DNA of 46,675 bases, from contig JALSHI010000059.1 in assembly GCA_026982315.1 (NCBI GenBank), positions 1-46,675 on the forward strand, in the 5' to 3' direction. Under the pieces are notes generated by a model. That model saw only the letters and a list, made by a program, of their open reading frames with translations. It searched no databases and was not told the origin of the DNA. The DNA is from Lysobacterales bacterium (GTDB taxonomy: Bacteria > Pseudomonadota > Gammaproteobacteria > Xanthomonadales > Marinicellaceae). Below are positions 2,569 to 12,067 of this stretch, piece after piece. Position 1 is the first letter of the stretch. Every line of letters begins with the position of its first letter. A program made the position numbers and the translations under genes.

Positions 2569-4068
2569 TCAGTGACCGTGCTGCCGGGTAACGCGCAGGA
2601 CTTCTTCCACACTGGTGATGCCGGCACGGATTTTTGCCACGCCATCGGCCAGAATGGAAGGTGTGGATTGACGGGCAATGGTTTCCAGAGCGTGCTCACT
2701 GGTGCGGTCGTGAATGGCTTTTTGCATTTCAGGGCCAATGTCAACCAGTTCGTAAATGCCGGTGCGGCCGCGATAGGCTTCATGCACGGGTAAGTCCGGG
2801 TTGGCTTTATACAGGGTGATATTTTCATCGCCCAATCCCAGCAAGGCGCGTTCCCTGGCATCGGGCGTATAGGCGATGCGGGTTTCGGGGTTCAATACCC
2901 GAACCAGCCGCTGGGCCAGGACACCCTTGAGGCTGGAGGCCAGCAGAAAAGGGGCGATGCCCATATCCACCAGTCGGGTAATGGCGCCCACGGCGGTATT
3001 GGTATGCAGGGTGGAAAGCACCAGATGCCCTGTCAGACTGGCCTGAGTGGCGATTTCCGCGGTTTCCAGGTCGCGGATTTCCCCCACCATGATGACATCC
3101 GGGTCTTGCCGTAAAAGCGCGCGCAGCCCTTTGGCAAAGCTCATGCCGACTTTGTCGTTGACCTGGGTTTGGCTGACTCCAGGCAGATTGTACTCAATCG
3201 GGTCTTCAATGGTCATGATGTTGCGACTGCGGTCATTAATGGTGGCCAAGGCGGCATACAAGGTGGTGGTTTTCCCTGAACCGGTGGGCCCTGTAACCAG
3301 CACAATGCCATGGGGTTGGTGGATGAGCGCTTGTATCCGCGACAGAGTGGCTGCATCCATTCCCAGGGCGCTTAGGTCCAACGCGCCGGTTTGTTTGTCC
3401 AGCAATCGCATGACAATGCGTTCGCCGAAGGCGCCGGGAATGGTGGAGACCCGCACATCTACTGGTCGCCCGGCAATACGCAGGGAGATGCGGCCGTCTT
3501 GTGGCAGGCGTTTTTCGGCAATATCCAGTTGCGCCATGATCTTGACCCGGGAGGCAATCAGCGGGGCGATGGATTTGGCCGGACTGATGACTTCCTGCAG
3601 TACACCGTCGATGCGATAGCGTACGCAGAGGCGGTCTTCAAACGGCTCAATATGAATGTCGGAGGCTTTCAGCTTAACCGCTTCGGCCAGCAAGGCATTT
3701 AACAGCCGGATAATGGGAGCATCGTCGTGACTTTCGAGCAAATCATCCGGCTCGGCCAGGTCTTCAGCGATTTGATCCAGGCTGGATTCGTCCTGGAGAT
3801 CCGCCACCACATCCCCGGCCACATGCTGTTGGTTGTGGTACAGGGTTTGGATCAGTTGCTGGTATGCTTCGGGTGGATAATAATGCACCGCCGCGGTGTG
3901 TTTGACAAAGCGGTGCAATTCGCTCAAGGTGGCCAGCGGAGCAGCCTCCGAGAGCGCCAGAACCGCCCCGTTGTCATTCCAGCTCTCTACCGTGCCACCG
4001 CGTTTGCGGGCAAAGGAAAACGGGGGCAGGGGATGGTTTTTTTCAGTGTCCGCAGGCGTGTCGCTCAT
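2569..4068 (-). CDS. gspE: Type II secretion ATPase GspE (tetracysteine motif absent)
   Basis: 499-residue secretion ATPase that powers pseudopilus assembly from the cytoplasm. Visible motifs are Walker [10 protein letters not shown] (260-268), an Asp box around MTIEDPIEY (285-293), Walker B QDPDVIMVGEIRD (321-333), and the His box TGHLVLSTLHTN (346-357). The N-terminal N1E region (about 1-100) is short. GspE proteins such as PulE and EpsE usually have CxxC...CxxC here to hold zinc, with the first pair after the conserved QRLVR. In this protein the stretch reads QRLVRVLNPETR and then NPDLPVHEAYRGRTG, with no cysteine at all; the only cysteine in the protein is residue 148. The rest is intact, so I expect an active enzyme with a zinc-free C-terminal module. 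It lies 2 bases after gspD. Confidence 0.96.
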   Translation of the reverse strand: MSDTPADTEKNHPLPPFSFARKRGGTVESWNDNGAVLALSEAAPLATLSELHRFVKHTAAVHYYPPEAYQQLIQTLYHNQQHVAGDVVADLQDESSLDQIAEDLAEPDDLLESHDDAPIIRLLNALLAEAVKLKASDIHIEPFEDRLCVRYRIDGVLQEVISPAKSIAPLIASRVKIMAQLDIAEKRLPQDGRISLRIAGRPVDVRVSTIPGAFGERIVMRLLDKQTGALDLSALGMDAATLSRIQALIHQPHGIVLVTGPTGSGKTTTLYAALATINDRSRNIMTIEDPIEYNLPGVSQTQVNDKVGMSFAKGLRALLRQDPDVIMVGEIRDLETAEIATQASLTGHLVLSTLHTNTAVGAITRLVDMGIAPFLLASSLKGVLAQRLVRVLNPETRIAYTPDARERALLGLGDENITLYKANPDLPVHEAYRGRTGIYELVDIGPEMQKAIHDRTSEHALETIARQSTPSILADGVAKIRAGITSVEEVLRVTRQHGH

Positions 4069-4070
4069 GG

Positions 4071-5963
4071 TTAGTTGGGGTTCTCACTTTGAGAATTGCC
4101 TGTTTCAGGCAGAGACTTGAGTTCAGGCTGTACCTGCTTGTCCCGGTCGCGGGCATTGGCTTTTTGTTGCAGTTGGCGAATGCGGTTATAGGCTGAATGG
4201 GTGAGGTCACGGCTGGTTTCATTATCGCGTAAGATAACCGGCCGTAAAAAGACCATCAAGTTGCGTTTTATTTTGGTTTTTTTCTTGTGCCGGAACAGGT
4301 TGCGCACCACCGGTATGTCGCCCAGTACCGGCACCTTGCTGATGGTTTCCTGGACATTTTCATCAATTAGCCCGCCCAAGACCAGAATCTGGTTGTTGGG
4401 AACCATCACCGATGTGTTCAGGGTGCGTTTGTTGGTAATGAGATCCACGGCGTTTTGGGAAGTCTGGGCGATGCTGGAAACTTCCTGGGAGATGTCCATT
4501 ACGATTTGGTCACCGTCGTTCACATGCGGGGTTACCGTGAGCGTAATGCCGACATCCTCCCGCTGGATGGTCTGAAAGGGGCTGGCGGCGCCATTGTTAT
4601 TGCCGGTATTGGTGTACTGACCGGTCACAAACGGCACTTCCTGGCCAACCGTTAGTTTGGCTTCCTTGTGGTTCAGCGTCACCACCGAAGGTGTTGAAAG
4701 GATGTTGTTATTGGTGTTGGAGGCTAAAGCGGAAAGCAATACGCCCAGCTGGATATTGCCATTGCTGTCGGTATCGATAAACCCCAGATTGAGGCCTTGG
4801 TTCAAAGTGGCCAGAGATTCCACGCTGTTCAGGTTCAGAATGTTGCCACGGGTGCCAAAATTGGTGCCGCCACCGGCCCCTGCACCCAGGCCTTGCCACT
4901 GCACCCCCAGTTCTTTGACAAAATCCAGGGAAACCTCGGCAATAATCGCTTCGACCCGCACCTGTGGGCGGCGAATGTCCAGATGGCGGATGGTATTGCT
5001 GATTTCCCGCAATATGGGTGGTGGTGCATTGACCACCAGGGAATTGGTTTCCTTGTGTGCCTGAATACTGACCTTGCCTGAATCGTTTTGATCGGCGCCA
5101 GTGTTGGCGAGCTTTTCCAGAATCGGCACCAGGGTTTCGGCATCCGCATAGCGCAGGTAGATAACTCGGGACTGCGAATCGCTGGCCAGGGGCTGGTCAA
5201 GCTGCGCCACCAGTGCCCGCACCTTGGCCTTTTGGGAAGCGTCGGCATTTATCAGGATCGAGTTGCTGCGTTCATCAGCCACCACTTTAACCGCGGGACC
5301 GGCATTGCCGGTGTCGGTGAGGGCTTCGATGGTTTGCGCCAGGTCACTGGCGTTGGCATAACGAACAGGAATCATCTCCAGTGAGGCGTCGGATTTCTTG
5401 TCTATGGCGCGGGCGATAGCGCTTAACCGCTCGACTTCATTCTTGCGTTCGGAAATGACCAGCGTGTTACTGCCTTTATGCGTGACAATCTTGGCCTTGT
5501 TGTTCATGCCTTTGAGGATGCTGGCCACCTGGGTGACAGGCACATGCTGCACCTTGATAATGCGGGTAATAAATTGCTCATCATGCCCGTGCGTATCGAG
5601 TACCGGGACAGCGTCGGTATCAGGCACGATTTTAATGGCTTGACCAGTATCGACAGCGCTTAATCCGTTGACACTCAAAATGGCCAGAAAGGTGTCGTAA
5701 ATTTCACTGCTGGGCACGGGATGGCCGGAAATAACAGTCACCTTGCCGGACACCGACGGGTCCACAATAAAATTCTTGCCGGTGATATCCGCAACAGTTT
5801 CAATCAGCAGGCGGATATCGGCGTCCTGCAGGTTCAGGGTGTGGGTGTCATTTTCTGGTTTCGGGGTGGCAGCATGGGCCATTGCCACCAGCAGGTAAAA
5901 GAGCGCAACAGACAGGCTTGGGGCGATTCGCAATAAAAAATGGCGCGGTTGGCTCGGGTTCAT
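4071..5963 (-). CDS. gspD: Type II secretion outer-membrane secretin GspD
   Basis: I place the start at the ATG at 5963 because it has AGGA seven bases upstream and is followed by a signal peptide ending AMAHA; a longer frame from 6056 lacks both. That gives 630 residues. The order is an N0 domain (NLQDADIRLLIETVADITG), three N1-N3 KH-like repeats (about 120-330), and the secretin core with the gate region and the sequence VPVLGDIPVVRNLF, ending in LMVFLRPVILRD. GspD forms the outer-membrane channel of type II secretion. After the secretin core only about 50 hydrophilic residues remain, with no obvious hydrophobic pilotin-binding helix. The gene follows gspC in the same direction with a 122-base gap. 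Confidence 0.96.
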   Translation of the reverse strand: MNPSQPRHFLLRIAPSLSVALFYLLVAMAHAATPKPENDTHTLNLQDADIRLLIETVADITGKNFIVDPSVSGKVTVISGHPVPSSEIYDTFLAILSVNGLSAVDTGQAIKIVPDTDAVPVLDTHGHDEQFITRIIKVQHVPVTQVASILKGMNNKAKIVTHKGSNTLVISERKNEVERLSAIARAIDKKSDASLEMIPVRYANASDLAQTIEALTDTGNAGPAVKVVADERSNSILINADASQKAKVRALVAQLDQPLASDSQSRVIYLRYADAETLVPILEKLANTGADQNDSGKVSIQAHKETNSLVVNAPPPILREISNTIRHLDIRRPQVRVEAIIAEVSLDFVKELGVQWQGLGAGAGGGTNFGTRGNILNLNSVESLATLNQGLNLGFIDTDSNGNIQLGVLLSALASNTNNNILSTPSVVTLNHKEAKLTVGQEVPFVTGQYTNTGNNNGAASPFQTIQREDVGITLTVTPHVNDGDQIVMDISQEVSSIAQTSQNAVDLITNKRTLNTSVMVPNNQILVLGGLIDENVQETISKVPVLGDIPVVRNLFRHKKKTKIKRNLMVFLRPVILRDNETSRDLTHSAYNRIRQLQQKANARDRDKQVQPELKSLPETGNSQSENPN

Positions 5964-6085
5964 GCGGTGTTCCTGCAACAGAATGGTTGAATTCGTATAG
6001 CACCGGTCTGGCCGGTCAAGCTGTCCGCATTGTAGCATCGAAGCCCGGCGCTTCAAGTCACAGCAGACTTTTTGCCCGTGGAGTT

Positions 6086-7006
6086 TCAGTGTGGCTGTTT
6101 GAGTGCGTCCAGATTCAGCTGCAAGTTTTGGGTACGACCATTGCGCCGGACAGTGAGATTGATCTGGCTGGCGTTTTCCAGTTCGCTGGCCAGATTCATG
6201 ATATTGGCCGGTGAAATGGCTTTGCCATTGATGGCGGTAATCAGGTCGTTGGAACGCAAGCCGGCGCGTTGAAGCAGCGCCCCCTGGCGCAAGGTGGACA
6301 CCCGTAGCCCGGATCCGGAAAATGAGCCATCGGTAATGGGGACTACCTGAATGCTTTTGGCGATTTCTTGCGGGTCCAGCAGGTATTTGTCACGAATGGC
6401 GTCGATCTGGTTTTGTTGTGCGCGGTCGGGCCGGCTGGAAGTTGACGACCCCCGGATACCGGGTATGGCCGAGCGGTTGCCACTGCTATGTTTTCGCTGA
6501 GCAGATGGGTGAGAGAACTGACCAGCTGTGGCCAGAGGGAGTTTTTCTTCTCGACCGTTACGGCGCAAAATCACATAGTCAGGGTGGATTTCCACCAGCT
6601 CGGCCAGTCCAAAAACCGTGTCGCCGACGGCAAAGCTTTTTTGCTGGCCTTTTTTGTTGTCAAGAAAGGCCAGGCCAGTGGACGGATTGCTGCCCGCCAT
6701 GGTGCCGGTGAGCCGCAGTTCCAGTTGCGACACTGGCGCATTATCTGGCGCGGTTTTGCCAGGCTGACCGAAAAGGGAGAAACTTTTAGCCTGGCCGGGT
6801 ACTACCGGTTGTGAAGGCGCGGCGGTTTTAACCGTGGCCTGTGGCTGTAAATCCGGTGGTTGCCAAAGAAAAAAGCGTAACCACACCCAGGCGGTTAACA
6901 GTATTAACAGCCAGGTTCCCCCAGAAAGCCAGCGTGGGTGCAATGATCCCAGGCCGGACAGCGCATACCCAAGGCGAAAGGCATGGTGTGGCGCCTGTGA
7001 GTTCAC
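6086..7006 (-). CDS. gspC: Type II secretion inner-membrane protein GspC
   Basis: 306 residues. Layout: a short cytoplasmic tail, one membrane helix (about 31-48, WLLILLTAWVWLRFFLW), a proline-rich linker, the HR domain (about 90-160, with LTGTMAGSNPSTGLAFLD and VHPDY-like IHPDYVILRRNG), a low-complexity linker, and a C-terminal PDZ domain (LRQGALLQRAGLRSNDLITAING). GspC links the inner-membrane platform to the secretin GspD and helps choose substrates. The start is GTG at 7006, whose last bases form the stop of the upstream lipoprotein gene (GTGA), so the two are probably translationally coupled. Confidence 0.93.
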   Translation of the reverse strand: MNSQAPHHAFRLGYALSGLGSLHPRWLSGGTWLLILLTAWVWLRFFLWQPPDLQPQATVKTAAPSQPVVPGQAKSFSLFGQPGKTAPDNAPVSQLELRLTGTMAGSNPSTGLAFLDNKKGQQKSFAVGDTVFGLAELVEIHPDYVILRRNGREEKLPLATAGQFSHPSAQRKHSSGNRSAIPGIRGSSTSSRPDRAQQNQIDAIRDKYLLDPQEIAKSIQVVPITDGSFSGSGLRVSTLRQGALLQRAGLRSNDLITAINGKAISPANIMNLASELENASQINLTVRRNGRTQNLQLNLDALKQPH

Positions 7007-9313: not shown

Positions 9314-11206
9314 ATGCTAATCAAGAAACAACACGCGCAAGCCTTATTGAATTTACTTAAACACGGTGCCCAGGGCGATGCCGTGGAAAACTATCCCTCC
9401 CACATTCTGGGAGACCTGGAAATTGCTGGTTTGGTCTCCTTTCCGGTGCCAGCTAACGCGGCTTTGACTTACAACGGTCAGTTGCTGGCGAATTTGCTGG
9501 AAGAAAGTCTTGATTCCGGCCTGGTGGCGCCTGTGGATGAGTGGAAAGAGGGGCATCGCTGGATTGCCTCGGAAATTATTTCCATGCTGGACAGTGCCCA
9601 CCGGGCCCAAAACGTGCCGGAAAGCACATGGGCAGCGCTCAAGGAGCGAGGTTTTGCCCATGAGGTCAAGGACAAGGAACGCAAGATTACACGCCGTGAA
9701 CTGAATGAAGCCGGCGAAGCCGTATTGGAGCTGTACTTTGTGCTGGAGCCCAATTTACACGTTGACGGCGAATTGGCCGAAGCCATCAAACGTTCCCCCA
9801 TGGGGCCGACCCGTGCTGTCAACTTGACAGCCAGTGGAGACATCAAAGATCGTCTGGAAAACATGCGCCTGATTGCTTACAGCGTTCCCGACGGGGATGT
9901 GGTGACTTTTACGGGTCTGGGGCAGGCGGTCAAAAACACCCTGCAAGCAGGTGTTACGCCTATTGAAGGCGAAATGATTTCTCCTTCCATACTCAAAATG
10001 GTCGCTGCCGTGGCCGATGGCGATGAAGTCACCGCAGAAGGCCTGGTGACCCTGGAGGAATTGGGTTATTTGCTGGATGAGGAAACCCTCTCTCCGGCCG
10101 GTGAGCAAGCGCTGGAAGTTTATCGCTTGTTCCATGACAAGCCGGAACAGCCCTTGTATTCCTTTGCGATTAGCGAAGACGAGGTGGATGTGTTGGCCAC
10201 CATTGATGCCTTGTGGAAGAAAAACCAGGAAAACCCGAAAATTGAAGCCAGCTTTGACGAAATCAAGCGTGAACTGGTGGACAGAAAAATCCGTGAATAT
10301 AAGAAACTGCTGGAAGAATATGGGCGAGAACTCAAGGAAATGCCCAAGAAAAAACAGGAAATTGCGCGCAAATTTGCTGATGCCAAAGACAAGGCCCAGT
10401 GGTTTGAGGATAACTTTTCCCTGCGGGAGTTGCTGTATGCCCTGGAAGCATTCAGCCTGATTCACACCACTGAGGGTAAGGAAAATCCGGAAGTTTTTAC
10501 GATAACAGACTATGGCCACGGTGTATTGGCCGATCAGAAAAATGATCGGCGGGAAATCTCTTCTGTGGCGCTAAAAAGTCTGATGCATGCCAATGAGTTA
10601 TTTCTTTCCCCTAACCGCGAATGGGTGGAAAAAGCCCGTGCCGAACGGCTGCTGGGTGAATTTGAGGCCAGCAAGTCGGGGCGTTTTTACGAAGACCTGG
10701 CTCAACATCCCATCCGTCAGCCTTTAATGACAAAGTATGGCATGGAGATTTTCAAAAAAATTCCCTCTCAGGGCATGACAGTGGACGAATTGTTATCCCA
10801 GGCGCGTGATGAAGACGAAAAGCACGCCATGGAAATGGCTCTGAACCTGCTTGAAGCCCGTGGCTTTATTGAAGTTCTTCCCGATGGCAATATTGTCGAA
10901 ACAGAAGCCGGTGAACTGATGGATAAAGCCATGAGTGGTGTGCCTGCAGGTTTTGGCGCACCCATTAACCCCGTTATGTATCGGGTTATCAAAGCCATTG
11001 CCCAAGCAGGCTCTCTGTACGATAAAGAGCGAAAAATTCGCATATTGCCCAAACACCTGAAGCAAGCTATCAAGGCTTCCGGCTTGCCACCGGCGGTATT
11101 TGAAAAGGCCTACACGGCCGCCAGAAACGCGCGTTATCTGGGTAAAAACTCCGTTAACGAAGCAGGCATTAATGTCTTGCAGGCTGTGGCGGCCATGAAC
11201 CCCTGA
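9314..11206 (+). CDS. Repeated winged-helix-like protein, DUF505-like, unknown function
   Basis: 630 residues, no signal peptide or membrane segment, so probably cytosolic. It resembles what I recall of the DUF505 family (uncharacterised, mostly archaeal and bacterial), but I cannot confirm that by search. The protein is built from repeated units that end in a wing-like motif, roughly T/N-x-x-G-x-x-hydrophobic: near 51-62 (LTYNGQLLANLL), 129-141 (ELNEAGEAVLELY), 197-210, 258-271 (TLSPAGEQALEVYR), 395-408, 528-540 (VETEAGELMDKAM) and 614-625 (VNEAGINVLQAV). A lysine-rich, probably coiled-coil stretch spans about 305-365. This pattern suggests nucleic-acid or protein binding. The ribosome site GGAG fits the chosen start. 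The following gene at 11309 is in the same direction and may be a partner. Confidence 0.85.
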   Translation: MLIKKQHAQALLNLLKHGAQGDAVENYPSHILGDLEIAGLVSFPVPANAALTYNGQLLANLLEESLDSGLVAPVDEWKEGHRWIASEIISMLDSAHRAQNVPESTWAALKERGFAHEVKDKERKITRRELNEAGEAVLELYFVLEPNLHVDGELAEAIKRSPMGPTRAVNLTASGDIKDRLENMRLIAYSVPDGDVVTFTGLGQAVKNTLQAGVTPIEGEMISPSILKMVAAVADGDEVTAEGLVTLEELGYLLDEETLSPAGEQALEVYRLFHDKPEQPLYSFAISEDEVDVLATIDALWKKNQENPKIEASFDEIKRELVDRKIREYKKLLEEYGRELKEMPKKKQEIARKFADAKDKAQWFEDNFSLRELLYALEAFSLIHTTEGKENPEVFTITDYGHGVLADQKNDRREISSVALKSLMHANELFLSPNREWVEKARAERLLGEFEASKSGRFYEDLAQHPIRQPLMTKYGMEIFKKIPSQGMTVDELLSQARDEDEKHAMEMALNLLEARGFIEVLPDGNIVETEAGELMDKAMSGVPAGFGAPINPVMYRVIKAIAQAGSLYDKERKIRILPKHLKQAIKASGLPPAVFEKAYTAARNARYLGKNSVNEAGINVLQAVAAMNP

Positions 11207-11218
11207 TTGACTGGACAG

Positions 11219-11253
11219 CCAGAAAGCGCCAGGGTATCCCGAGCGCTTTCTGG
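11219..11253 (+). other. Perfect intergenic hairpin between the two unknown genes
   Basis: An 11-base arm CCAGAAAGCGC (11219-11229) pairs exactly with GCGCTTTCTGG (11243-11253). The 13-base loop itself holds GGG/CCC around TAT. There is no T-run after it, so it is not a standard terminator. It could cause partial termination or protect or process the message between the two genes. Confidence 0.6.
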
Positions 11254-11308
11254 TGACTCAGGTCATACAGACCGAATTCTTATCTAACCCAACTTAAAGA
11301 GAAAACAC

Positions 11309-11992
11309 ATGATAAATCCTGTTGCATTGGGCACACTGGTTTTCGAATACCTGGAAGTGCCAGCCAATAGCCGTCGTATTAAAGTCAAAACCCTGAAATC
11401 CTGGGGATTTGACTTGCTCAAGGGACGCATTGATGGCCAGGCTGGGTGGTTTGTGGCCGAAGTGGGCGCGCGCCATGGCGGCGACAGCTATACCGAGAAT
11501 GAAAAAACCTATGATGTGGACGAAGTCATCAAGGAACTGAGTTCCAACGAAAACATCGAAGTGGCGATTGAATTAATTGAAGGCACTGCCTGGCTGGCGG
11601 GTGTTTTGTGTGACGAAGACGATGTGGCTCACGAAATTTTCATGTTGCCAGCGGCGGCAACCTTGTCCGCTTTCCTGAAAAAACAACGCCTGGATAAGCT
11701 GGCCGGCTGTATTCGCAGTGTGGGCACCATGACCGGTATTGTCACCCATCGTGGTGAGCACGGAAAGCCGTTGCCTTATGAGGAACTGCCCAACGAGATC
11801 CGGCGCTTTTTGAAAGATGCGCGCAAGCAAGTGGCCAAGAAAACCGGTTCCAGCCGCATCGCGCTGGCCTGCTTTGGAGAAAACAAAGACCGATTGCCGC
11901 GTTACTGGTTGAGCTGGATGTTACCAACCATTGATTTGCTAGATGCTTCCATTGCCAAGAAAACTGACCAGCTATTGAAGGAATTGCCTTAA
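11309..11992 (+). CDS. Conserved-looking cytosolic protein of unknown function
   Basis: 227 residues that I do not recognise. There is no signal peptide and no membrane helix. The N-terminal half is beta-rich and acidic (about 1-110); the C-terminal part has a basic stretch (about 160-180, RFLKDARKQVAKKTGSSR) and ends in helices (DLLDASIAKKTDQLLKEL). The start ATG at 11309 has AAAGAGA about 7 bases upstream. It lies 102 bases after the repeated winged-helix gene with only a hairpin between them, and a strong terminator follows at 12031, so the two probably form one transcription unit. No function is proposed. Confidence 0.8.
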   Translation: MINPVALGTLVFEYLEVPANSRRIKVKTLKSWGFDLLKGRIDGQAGWFVAEVGARHGGDSYTENEKTYDVDEVIKELSSNENIEVAIELIEGTAWLAGVLCDEDDVAHEIFMLPAAATLSAFLKKQRLDKLAGCIRSVGTMTGIVTHRGEHGKPLPYEELPNEIRRFLKDARKQVAKKTGSSRIALACFGENKDRLPRYWLSWMLPTIDLLDASIAKKTDQLLKELP

Positions 11993-12030: not shown

Positions 12031-12067
12031 CACAAAAAAGCGCATCATTTTGATGCGCTTTTTTGTG
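12031..12067. terminator. Bidirectional rho-independent terminator
   Basis: A perfect 17-base stem: the left arm CACAAAAAAGCGCATCA (12031-12047), loop TTT, and right arm 12051-12067. It has A6 on one side and T6 on the other, so it can stop transcripts from both directions: the plus-strand gene ending at 11992 and the minus-strand cold-shock gene ending at 12124. Confidence 0.9.

Follow-up and report, generated by a model that had tools for sequence, protein, structure and literature searches.

Several winged helices in a row are found in RPC62 and in p52 of TFIIH, and both proteins serve as scaffolds. In this serial build they resemble DUF505 (Pfam PF04458), an orphan protein family, and they head the list of folds compared with it, but not significantly, and there is no evidence of common descent. 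UPF0128 (Pfam PF03673, TIGR00703) is a second orphan family, whose genes are often found with those of DUF505. The open-licence literature searched holds no description of a function for either family, although such an absence is weak evidence. Text matches to DUF505 in the available parts of papers concern DUF5050 or DUF5059 instead, and the part of PMC1274311 that was available holds nothing on DUF505 or its linked families.

The neighbours of these two families include or resemble better-described proteins. Csm5 is a RAMP subunit of type III-A CRISPR systems, and a family, here called c1, that stands beside UPF0128 or DUF505 shows a tentative profile similarity to it in both directions. Prefoldin alpha (PF02996, TIGR00293) occurs in the same gene clusters. 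A YfdX protein has chaperone-like activity, according to the title of PMC4941729, and DUF1931 proteins are described in the accessible parts of PMC11390915 and PMC13140390 as histone folds without the usual DNA-binding residues.

The DUF505 gene and its family

The window analysed here is a stretch of 46,675 nucleotides from a Lysobacterales bacterium (assembly GCA_026982315.1, contig JALSHI010000059.1, forward strand). At 9314–11206 (+) it carries an open reading frame with an ATG start that encodes 630 amino acids. A sequence-only reading of the window had called this protein DUF505-like, a family for which it knew of no function, and had proposed a profile search as a check. The Pfam search places the protein firmly in PF04458 (E 3.2e-219; 729.9 bits against a cut-off of 28.7), with residues 1–625 aligned to positions 1–622 of the 622-position profile, that is, over its full length. 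The literature searched likewise offers no function.

Comparison within the family was based on an alignment of 24 sequences (A2), comprising the window protein and the proteins of 23 of the 25 loci found by scanning genome contigs. The other two loci, L025 and L028, were left out, and their DUF505 matches are also absent from the neighbour labels based on open reading frames. In A2 and its motif columns, the window protein has the family start, M[LI]IKK, and the closing glycines. Start and length are those of the family, and nothing sets the protein apart from other members except the phylum of its host. It is a further member of a known orphan family, present in a single copy in the window genome, and no NCBIfam model matches it.

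A search for solved homologues by sequence gave none that was convincing for DUF505 or UPF0128. PrgI entries obtained with the DUF505 profile (E 0.019–0.5, over a single 62-residue stretch) were discounted as chance, while PadR and PhiH1 repressor entries (E 0.2 and 1.6) are weak and consistent with winged helices. A role in defence was also considered and set aside: DUF505, UPF0128, c1 and an HTH-like protein of Thermaceae gave no PADLOC match of weight, the sole match (E 0.032) falling in the coiled-coil region of DUF505. A phage, plasmid or viral origin was rejected as well, as DUF505 was not found in the phages or plasmids searched, and the viral contigs searched yielded neither DUF505 nor UPF0128.

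A predicted chain of eight winged helices

The sequence-only reading had described seven spaced wing-end motifs over 630 residues, about seven winged-helix repeats and a basic coiled coil in the middle. The motif count is accurate: the strict form, [TN]xxGxx-hydrophobic, occurs seven times (residues 52, 131, 200, 398, 473, 530 and 615), against a mean of 1.2 in shuffled sequences, and seven copies were reached in 1 of 20,000 shuffles. With S also allowed there are nine copies, against a shuffle mean of 2.0, and nine were reached in 3 of 20,000 shuffles.

Not every copy is a feature of the family, and not every family feature has the strict form. In 20 of 23 homologues the glycine column at residue 473 holds E. 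The strict form misses residues 260 and 453, where the glycine is invariant. Across A2 the motif glycine is invariant at 52, 200, 260, 398, 453 and 530, is kept in 20 of 21 sequences at 615, and is not conserved at 131. The lack of conservation at 473, set against the conserved motifs at 260 and 453, makes eight units a better reading than seven.

Structure prediction, which had been proposed for counting the winged helices, points the same way. An AlphaFold2 model built with 24 sequences is confident (mean pLDDT 88.8, pTM 0.87) and is read as a chain of eight winged helices, with unit borders taken from its secondary structure. In the model, each of the eight motifs (residues 52, 131, 200, 260, 398, 453, 530 and 615) is followed by the helix that closes one of the winged helices. 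The chain of winged helices thus stands, and the number seven gives way to eight. The basic coiled coil corresponds to a helical hairpin at residues 312–360, which has a net charge of +2.8 and is modestly confident in parts, with 10-residue blocks down to pLDDT 61. The features of the gene, as read from the model, are as follows.

9314–11206, + strand: DUF505 gene, 630 aa (PF04458; model pLDDT 88.8)
9314–9523, + strand: predicted winged helix 1, residues 1–70 (MarR-type 4lll, Z 8.7, rmsd 1.8, 70 aligned)
9545–9754, + strand: predicted winged helix 2, residues 78–147 (hhalign to unit 4, probability 92)
9755–9961, + strand: predicted winged helix 3, residues 148–216 (hhalign to unit 5, probability 71)
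9962–10162, + strand: predicted winged helix 4, residues 217–283 (hhalign to unit 2, probability 92)
10163–10549, + strand: predicted winged helix 5, residues 284–412, with the hairpin inserted (C-terminal half, hhalign to units 2 and 3)
10247–10393, + strand: basic helical hairpin within winged helix 5, residues 312–360 (alignment, model and charge)
10550–10717, + strand: predicted winged helix 6, residues 413–468 (hhalign to unit 8, score 20.5 against a null maximum of 17.4)
10718–10954, + strand: predicted winged helix 7, residues 469–547 (MarR 3vb2, Z 9.9, rmsd 2.5, 75 aligned)
10955–11203, + strand: predicted winged helix 8, residues 548–630, net basic in the family (model and charge)

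The repeats are also detectable by comparison of the eight segments with one another. In hhalign, 16 of 28 pairs passed the 95th percentile set by a null of 168 column-shuffled comparisons. The highest score in that null was 17.4, and no segment lacks a pair that surpasses it. Two short homologues, at L024 (7001–8770) and L027 (5528–7387), are without the middle hairpin.

Charge and fold comparisons

A chain of winged helices, the sequence-only reading had suggested, could wrap nucleic acid or form a scaffold. On the first view, DUF505 would be an architectural protein whose units, arranged in a row, wrap or bridge DNA or RNA. This view draws on the resemblance of single units to MarR-type folds (3vb2, 4lll), on the basic hairpin and last unit, on the DUF1931 histone-fold gene near DUF505 in Campylobacterota loci, and on matches of L024 and L027 to an Sso10a chromatin protein model, which are weak and far below the cut-off (E 2e-4 and 9e-4). 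However, the homologues are acidic in 24 of 24 cases (pI 4.75–6.05), and the H3 positions, as we assigned them, are neutral or acidic, with charge sums over the eight units of -3.4 to +0.3. Clearly net basic values are confined to the hairpin (+2.8, averaged over the 24 homologues) and the last winged helix (+3.1). The basic recognition helices along the chain that would mark a winged-helix protein wrapping nucleic acid are not present, and the DUF1931 histones themselves are without the usual DNA-binding residues, as the part of PMC11390915 available describes them. Wrapping therefore fits the charges poorly and is unlikely. Of the two suggestions, the scaffold fits better: the acidic homologues and H3 positions, together with the recurrence of the same linked genes, on which the sequence-only reading was silent, argue for a chain that mainly binds protein.

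Comparison of the whole fold leads to a different possibility, namely a factor associated with transcription or translation and docked on RNA polymerase or the ribosome, as other serial winged-helix proteins are. Its attraction is that the best whole-chain matches, none of them significant, are to TFIIH, RPC62, TFIIIC and SelB. Yet in Foldseek none of 266 PDB entries reached E 1e-3, and the best, a chain of a nucleotide-excision-repair complex, had E 6.3e-3 and a TM of about 0.1; moreover, the neighbouring genes examined include no recurrent gene of transcription or of the ribosome. Docking of this kind is accordingly quite improbable. Closer comparison of the PDB entries covered mainly residues 469–610 and barely sampled the other units. 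Against viral models, none of 219 matches to the whole-chain fold reached E 1e-3.

UPF0128, the downstream neighbour

Directly after DUF505 the window carries a member of UPF0128, with two inverted repeats nearby.

11219–11253, + strand: hairpin between DUF505 and UPF0128, with no T run (minimum free energy of 11200–11310, -38.1; z -5.45)
11309–11992, + strand: UPF0128/TIGR00703 gene, 227 aa (PF03673 E 6.6e-65; TIGR00703 over its cut-off)
about 12032–12066, + strand: terminator-like inverted repeat 3' of UPF0128 (found by eye; absent from the computed site list)

The family assignment of the neighbour is secure (PF03673, 219.2 bits against 21; TIGR00703, 212.6 against 155.4). A model of it built from four sequences reached a pLDDT of 34.9, too low to assign a fold. 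The hairpin between the genes is not aligned in the sister species (G553), and the window holds no second exact pair.

The sister species retains the order DUF505–UPF0128. Between it and the window, dN/dS is 0.039/2.26 for DUF505 (229 codons) and 0.122/1.29 for UPF0128 (225 codons), values for which dS is near saturation. Both proteins are therefore under purifying selection.

Genes linked to DUF505 in other genomes

The association of DUF505 with UPF0128 and further genes recurs in several phyla, in varying arrangements. In Thermaceae (L009, L010 and L022), the gene immediately upstream of DUF505 is UPF0128, the reverse of the order in the window. In Thermodesulfobacteria (L006–L008), c1 lies directly downstream of DUF505; in L009 and L022 it is somewhat further downstream. 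Campylobacterota loci L021 and L026 have the order YfdX, DUF1931, DUF308, DUF505, and L028 has the same first three genes with a DUF505 match some 5 kb further along. In a WOR-3 locus (L011), DUF505 is followed by YfdX.

The fullest arrangements are found in the phylum of a Persephonella metagenome-assembled genome (G407), here termed Aquificota-type. UPF0128, c1, prefoldin, YfdX, c4, c5 and DUF1931 occur in one run at L084–L086. In G423 and G429, genes whose ends overlap or nearly touch follow the order prefoldin, c4, c5, UPF0128, c1, a 99-aa gene and DUF505, and G428 has the same cluster order, with a prefoldin identified through a family search. In G423 (L092) the 99-aa protein matches Prefoldin_2 (E 5.6e-7). 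The c4 and c5 proteins match no Pfam family and, judged from their sequences, are membrane proteins. Archaeal-type prefoldin alpha genes stand beside UPF0128, c1, c4 and c5 in bacterial loci L092, L093, L084, L085 and L086.

Co-occurrence was counted over 136 genomes of this phylum. DUF505 is present in 65 and UPF0128 in 47; c1 is present in 50 by the search tally and in 48 once the weak matches of G424 and G517 are dropped, along with secondary weak matches elsewhere. DUF505 and UPF0128 occur together in 45 genomes, UPF0128 alone in 2, DUF505 alone in 20 and neither in 69. For c1 and UPF0128, 44 genomes have both, 4 have c1 only, 3 have UPF0128 only and 85 have neither. DUF505 is carried by 45 of the 47 UPF0128 genomes and 46 of the 48 c1 genomes (Fisher p values of co-occurrence <1e-16, with ancestry ignored). 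Of the 44 genomes with both c1 and UPF0128, 39 have them no more than 100 bp apart. A search of 41 chosen genomes found prefoldin in 21, and in 19 of these 21 it shares a contig with UPF0128 and c1 and lies no more than about 2 kb away. DUF505 itself is far from the UPF0128–c1 cluster, or on another contig, in many Aquificota-type genomes.

Two genes, the c1 gene of L100 and the prefoldin gene of L094, escaped the calling of open reading frames because longer frames occupy the opposite strand; family searches find both. In the genomes of L103 and L102, from the same phylum, there is a second, more divergent UPF0128 copy without an adjacent c1.

A Csm5-like protein

The c1 protein has no Pfam or NCBIfam match of its own. 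A profile of 10 c1 sequences nevertheless finds a Csm5 chain as its best PDB match (E 0.0074), with Csm5 in five of seven entries, and in the reverse direction a search with the Csm5 model picks up the c1 protein of G423, at E 1.2e-6 and short of the model's cut-off. On genomes, the c1 profile also finds longer proteins, and of five that were fetched, TIGR01899 identifies four as Csm5, the fifth being without a match. The two families differ in size, c1 having about 240 aa and Csm5 about 360–400, and in the position of c1 beside UPF0128 or DUF505.

Among the 41 genomes searched, 25 carry c1, and 14 of these are without Csm5 over the cut-off, some of the assemblies being incomplete. On this basis c1 looks like a RAMP protein independent of type III-A CRISPR. 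No RAMP protein outside CRISPR came up in a phrase search of the open-licence literature. A 297-aa protein at L111:2416–3309 (-) matches the c1 profile (E 2e-6) and no NCBIfam family, and is possibly RAMP-like outside Csm5.

A possible scaffold

The recurrence of the same partner genes beside DUF505 in heat-loving bacteria, among them genes for a chaperone and for a protein related to a CRISPR component, suggests a cellular machine that has not been described. DUF505 would form an elongated chain of eight winged helices, acidic for the most part, and act mainly as a protein scaffold. It would most likely hold UPF0128 and, where present, c1, and would touch nucleic acid, if at all, through the basic hairpin and the last winged helix. 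Where the system is more complete, prefoldin, c4 and c5 would belong to the same module, and the resulting assembly may handle RNA, ribonucleoprotein or nascent protein under stress. We put this explanation as a whole, an acidic eight-unit scaffold with UPF0128, c1 and a quality-control module, somewhat short of an even chance. Family membership, the predicted fold, the internal repeats, the linkage and co-occurrence of the genes and purifying selection are established by the analysis. The module is well supported as gene linkage and unproven as a machine, and a physical complex, a scaffold role and quality control of RNA or protein are what we infer from it.

A more specific version is doubtful though conceivable. 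Here, DUF505 would serve as the scaffold of a bacterial machine not described before, which combines a CRISPR-independent, Csm5-like RAMP protein with UPF0128 and prefoldin. Anchored to the membrane through c4 and c5, this machine would act on RNA or nascent protein at high temperature, and the window genus would keep a two-gene core of it. Linked to one another, to a RAMP protein found in genomes without Csm5, and to prefoldin, two orphan families become a testable complex. If the proposal is true, a RAMP protein would be working outside CRISPR, and prefoldin would gain a partner set in bacteria.

Host range and temperature

DUF505 is rare in the phylum of the window, where it exceeds the cut-off in 2 of 398 genomes. 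It is present in two of three genomes of the window genus, the window's own included, but in none of 30 genomes of other genera of the family and none of 28 others of the order. This patchy presence indicates that DUF505 was probably gained horizontally.

The 25 loci found by scanning genome contigs include many with vent or thermophile lineage names. The window, by comparison, has a mesophilic look, with a tRNA G+C of 60.7% and an IVYWREL fraction of 0.390, which the growth-temperature formula for this index converts to about 30 C. The estimate is a poor one, as shown by a Thermopetrobacter locus whose name marks it as thermophilic and which scored about 25 C. The search for 16S in the window genome found none. 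A strict link between DUF505 and heat is not claimed, as the window looks mesophilic and 71 of the 136 Aquificota-type genomes are without DUF505.

These distributions bear on whether the linked genes merely travel together in heat or stress gene islands, with DUF505 performing an unrelated task. Patchy occurrence would fit such islands, as would the variation of gene order between phyla and the vent or thermophile names of many hosts. The gene order is nevertheless tight in three genomes, and c1 and UPF0128 are nearly inseparable. In the window genus, which by its composition does not look like a thermophile, purifying selection maintains the DUF505–UPF0128 pair. Mere co-travel is therefore improbable, and the scaffold module remains our preferred reading.

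The partners of that scaffold would not be the same everywhere. UPF0128 is present in 12 of the 26 DUF505 genomes searched, including that of the window, with no match in the other 14, and in the search controls Thermotoga maritima has DUF505 without UPF0128. DUF505 can therefore act without its UPF0128, c1 and prefoldin partners, or with others. In the window genome (99.02% complete), no c1, prefoldin or c5 was found, and there was no match to TIGR01899 (Csm5), so that a type III-A system is not indicated. The organism would thus have the DUF505–UPF0128 core, the only part found, and its genus would represent a two-gene version of the module. Type II secretion genes (gspE, gspD and gspC) adjoin this locus at 2569–7006 (-) of the window.
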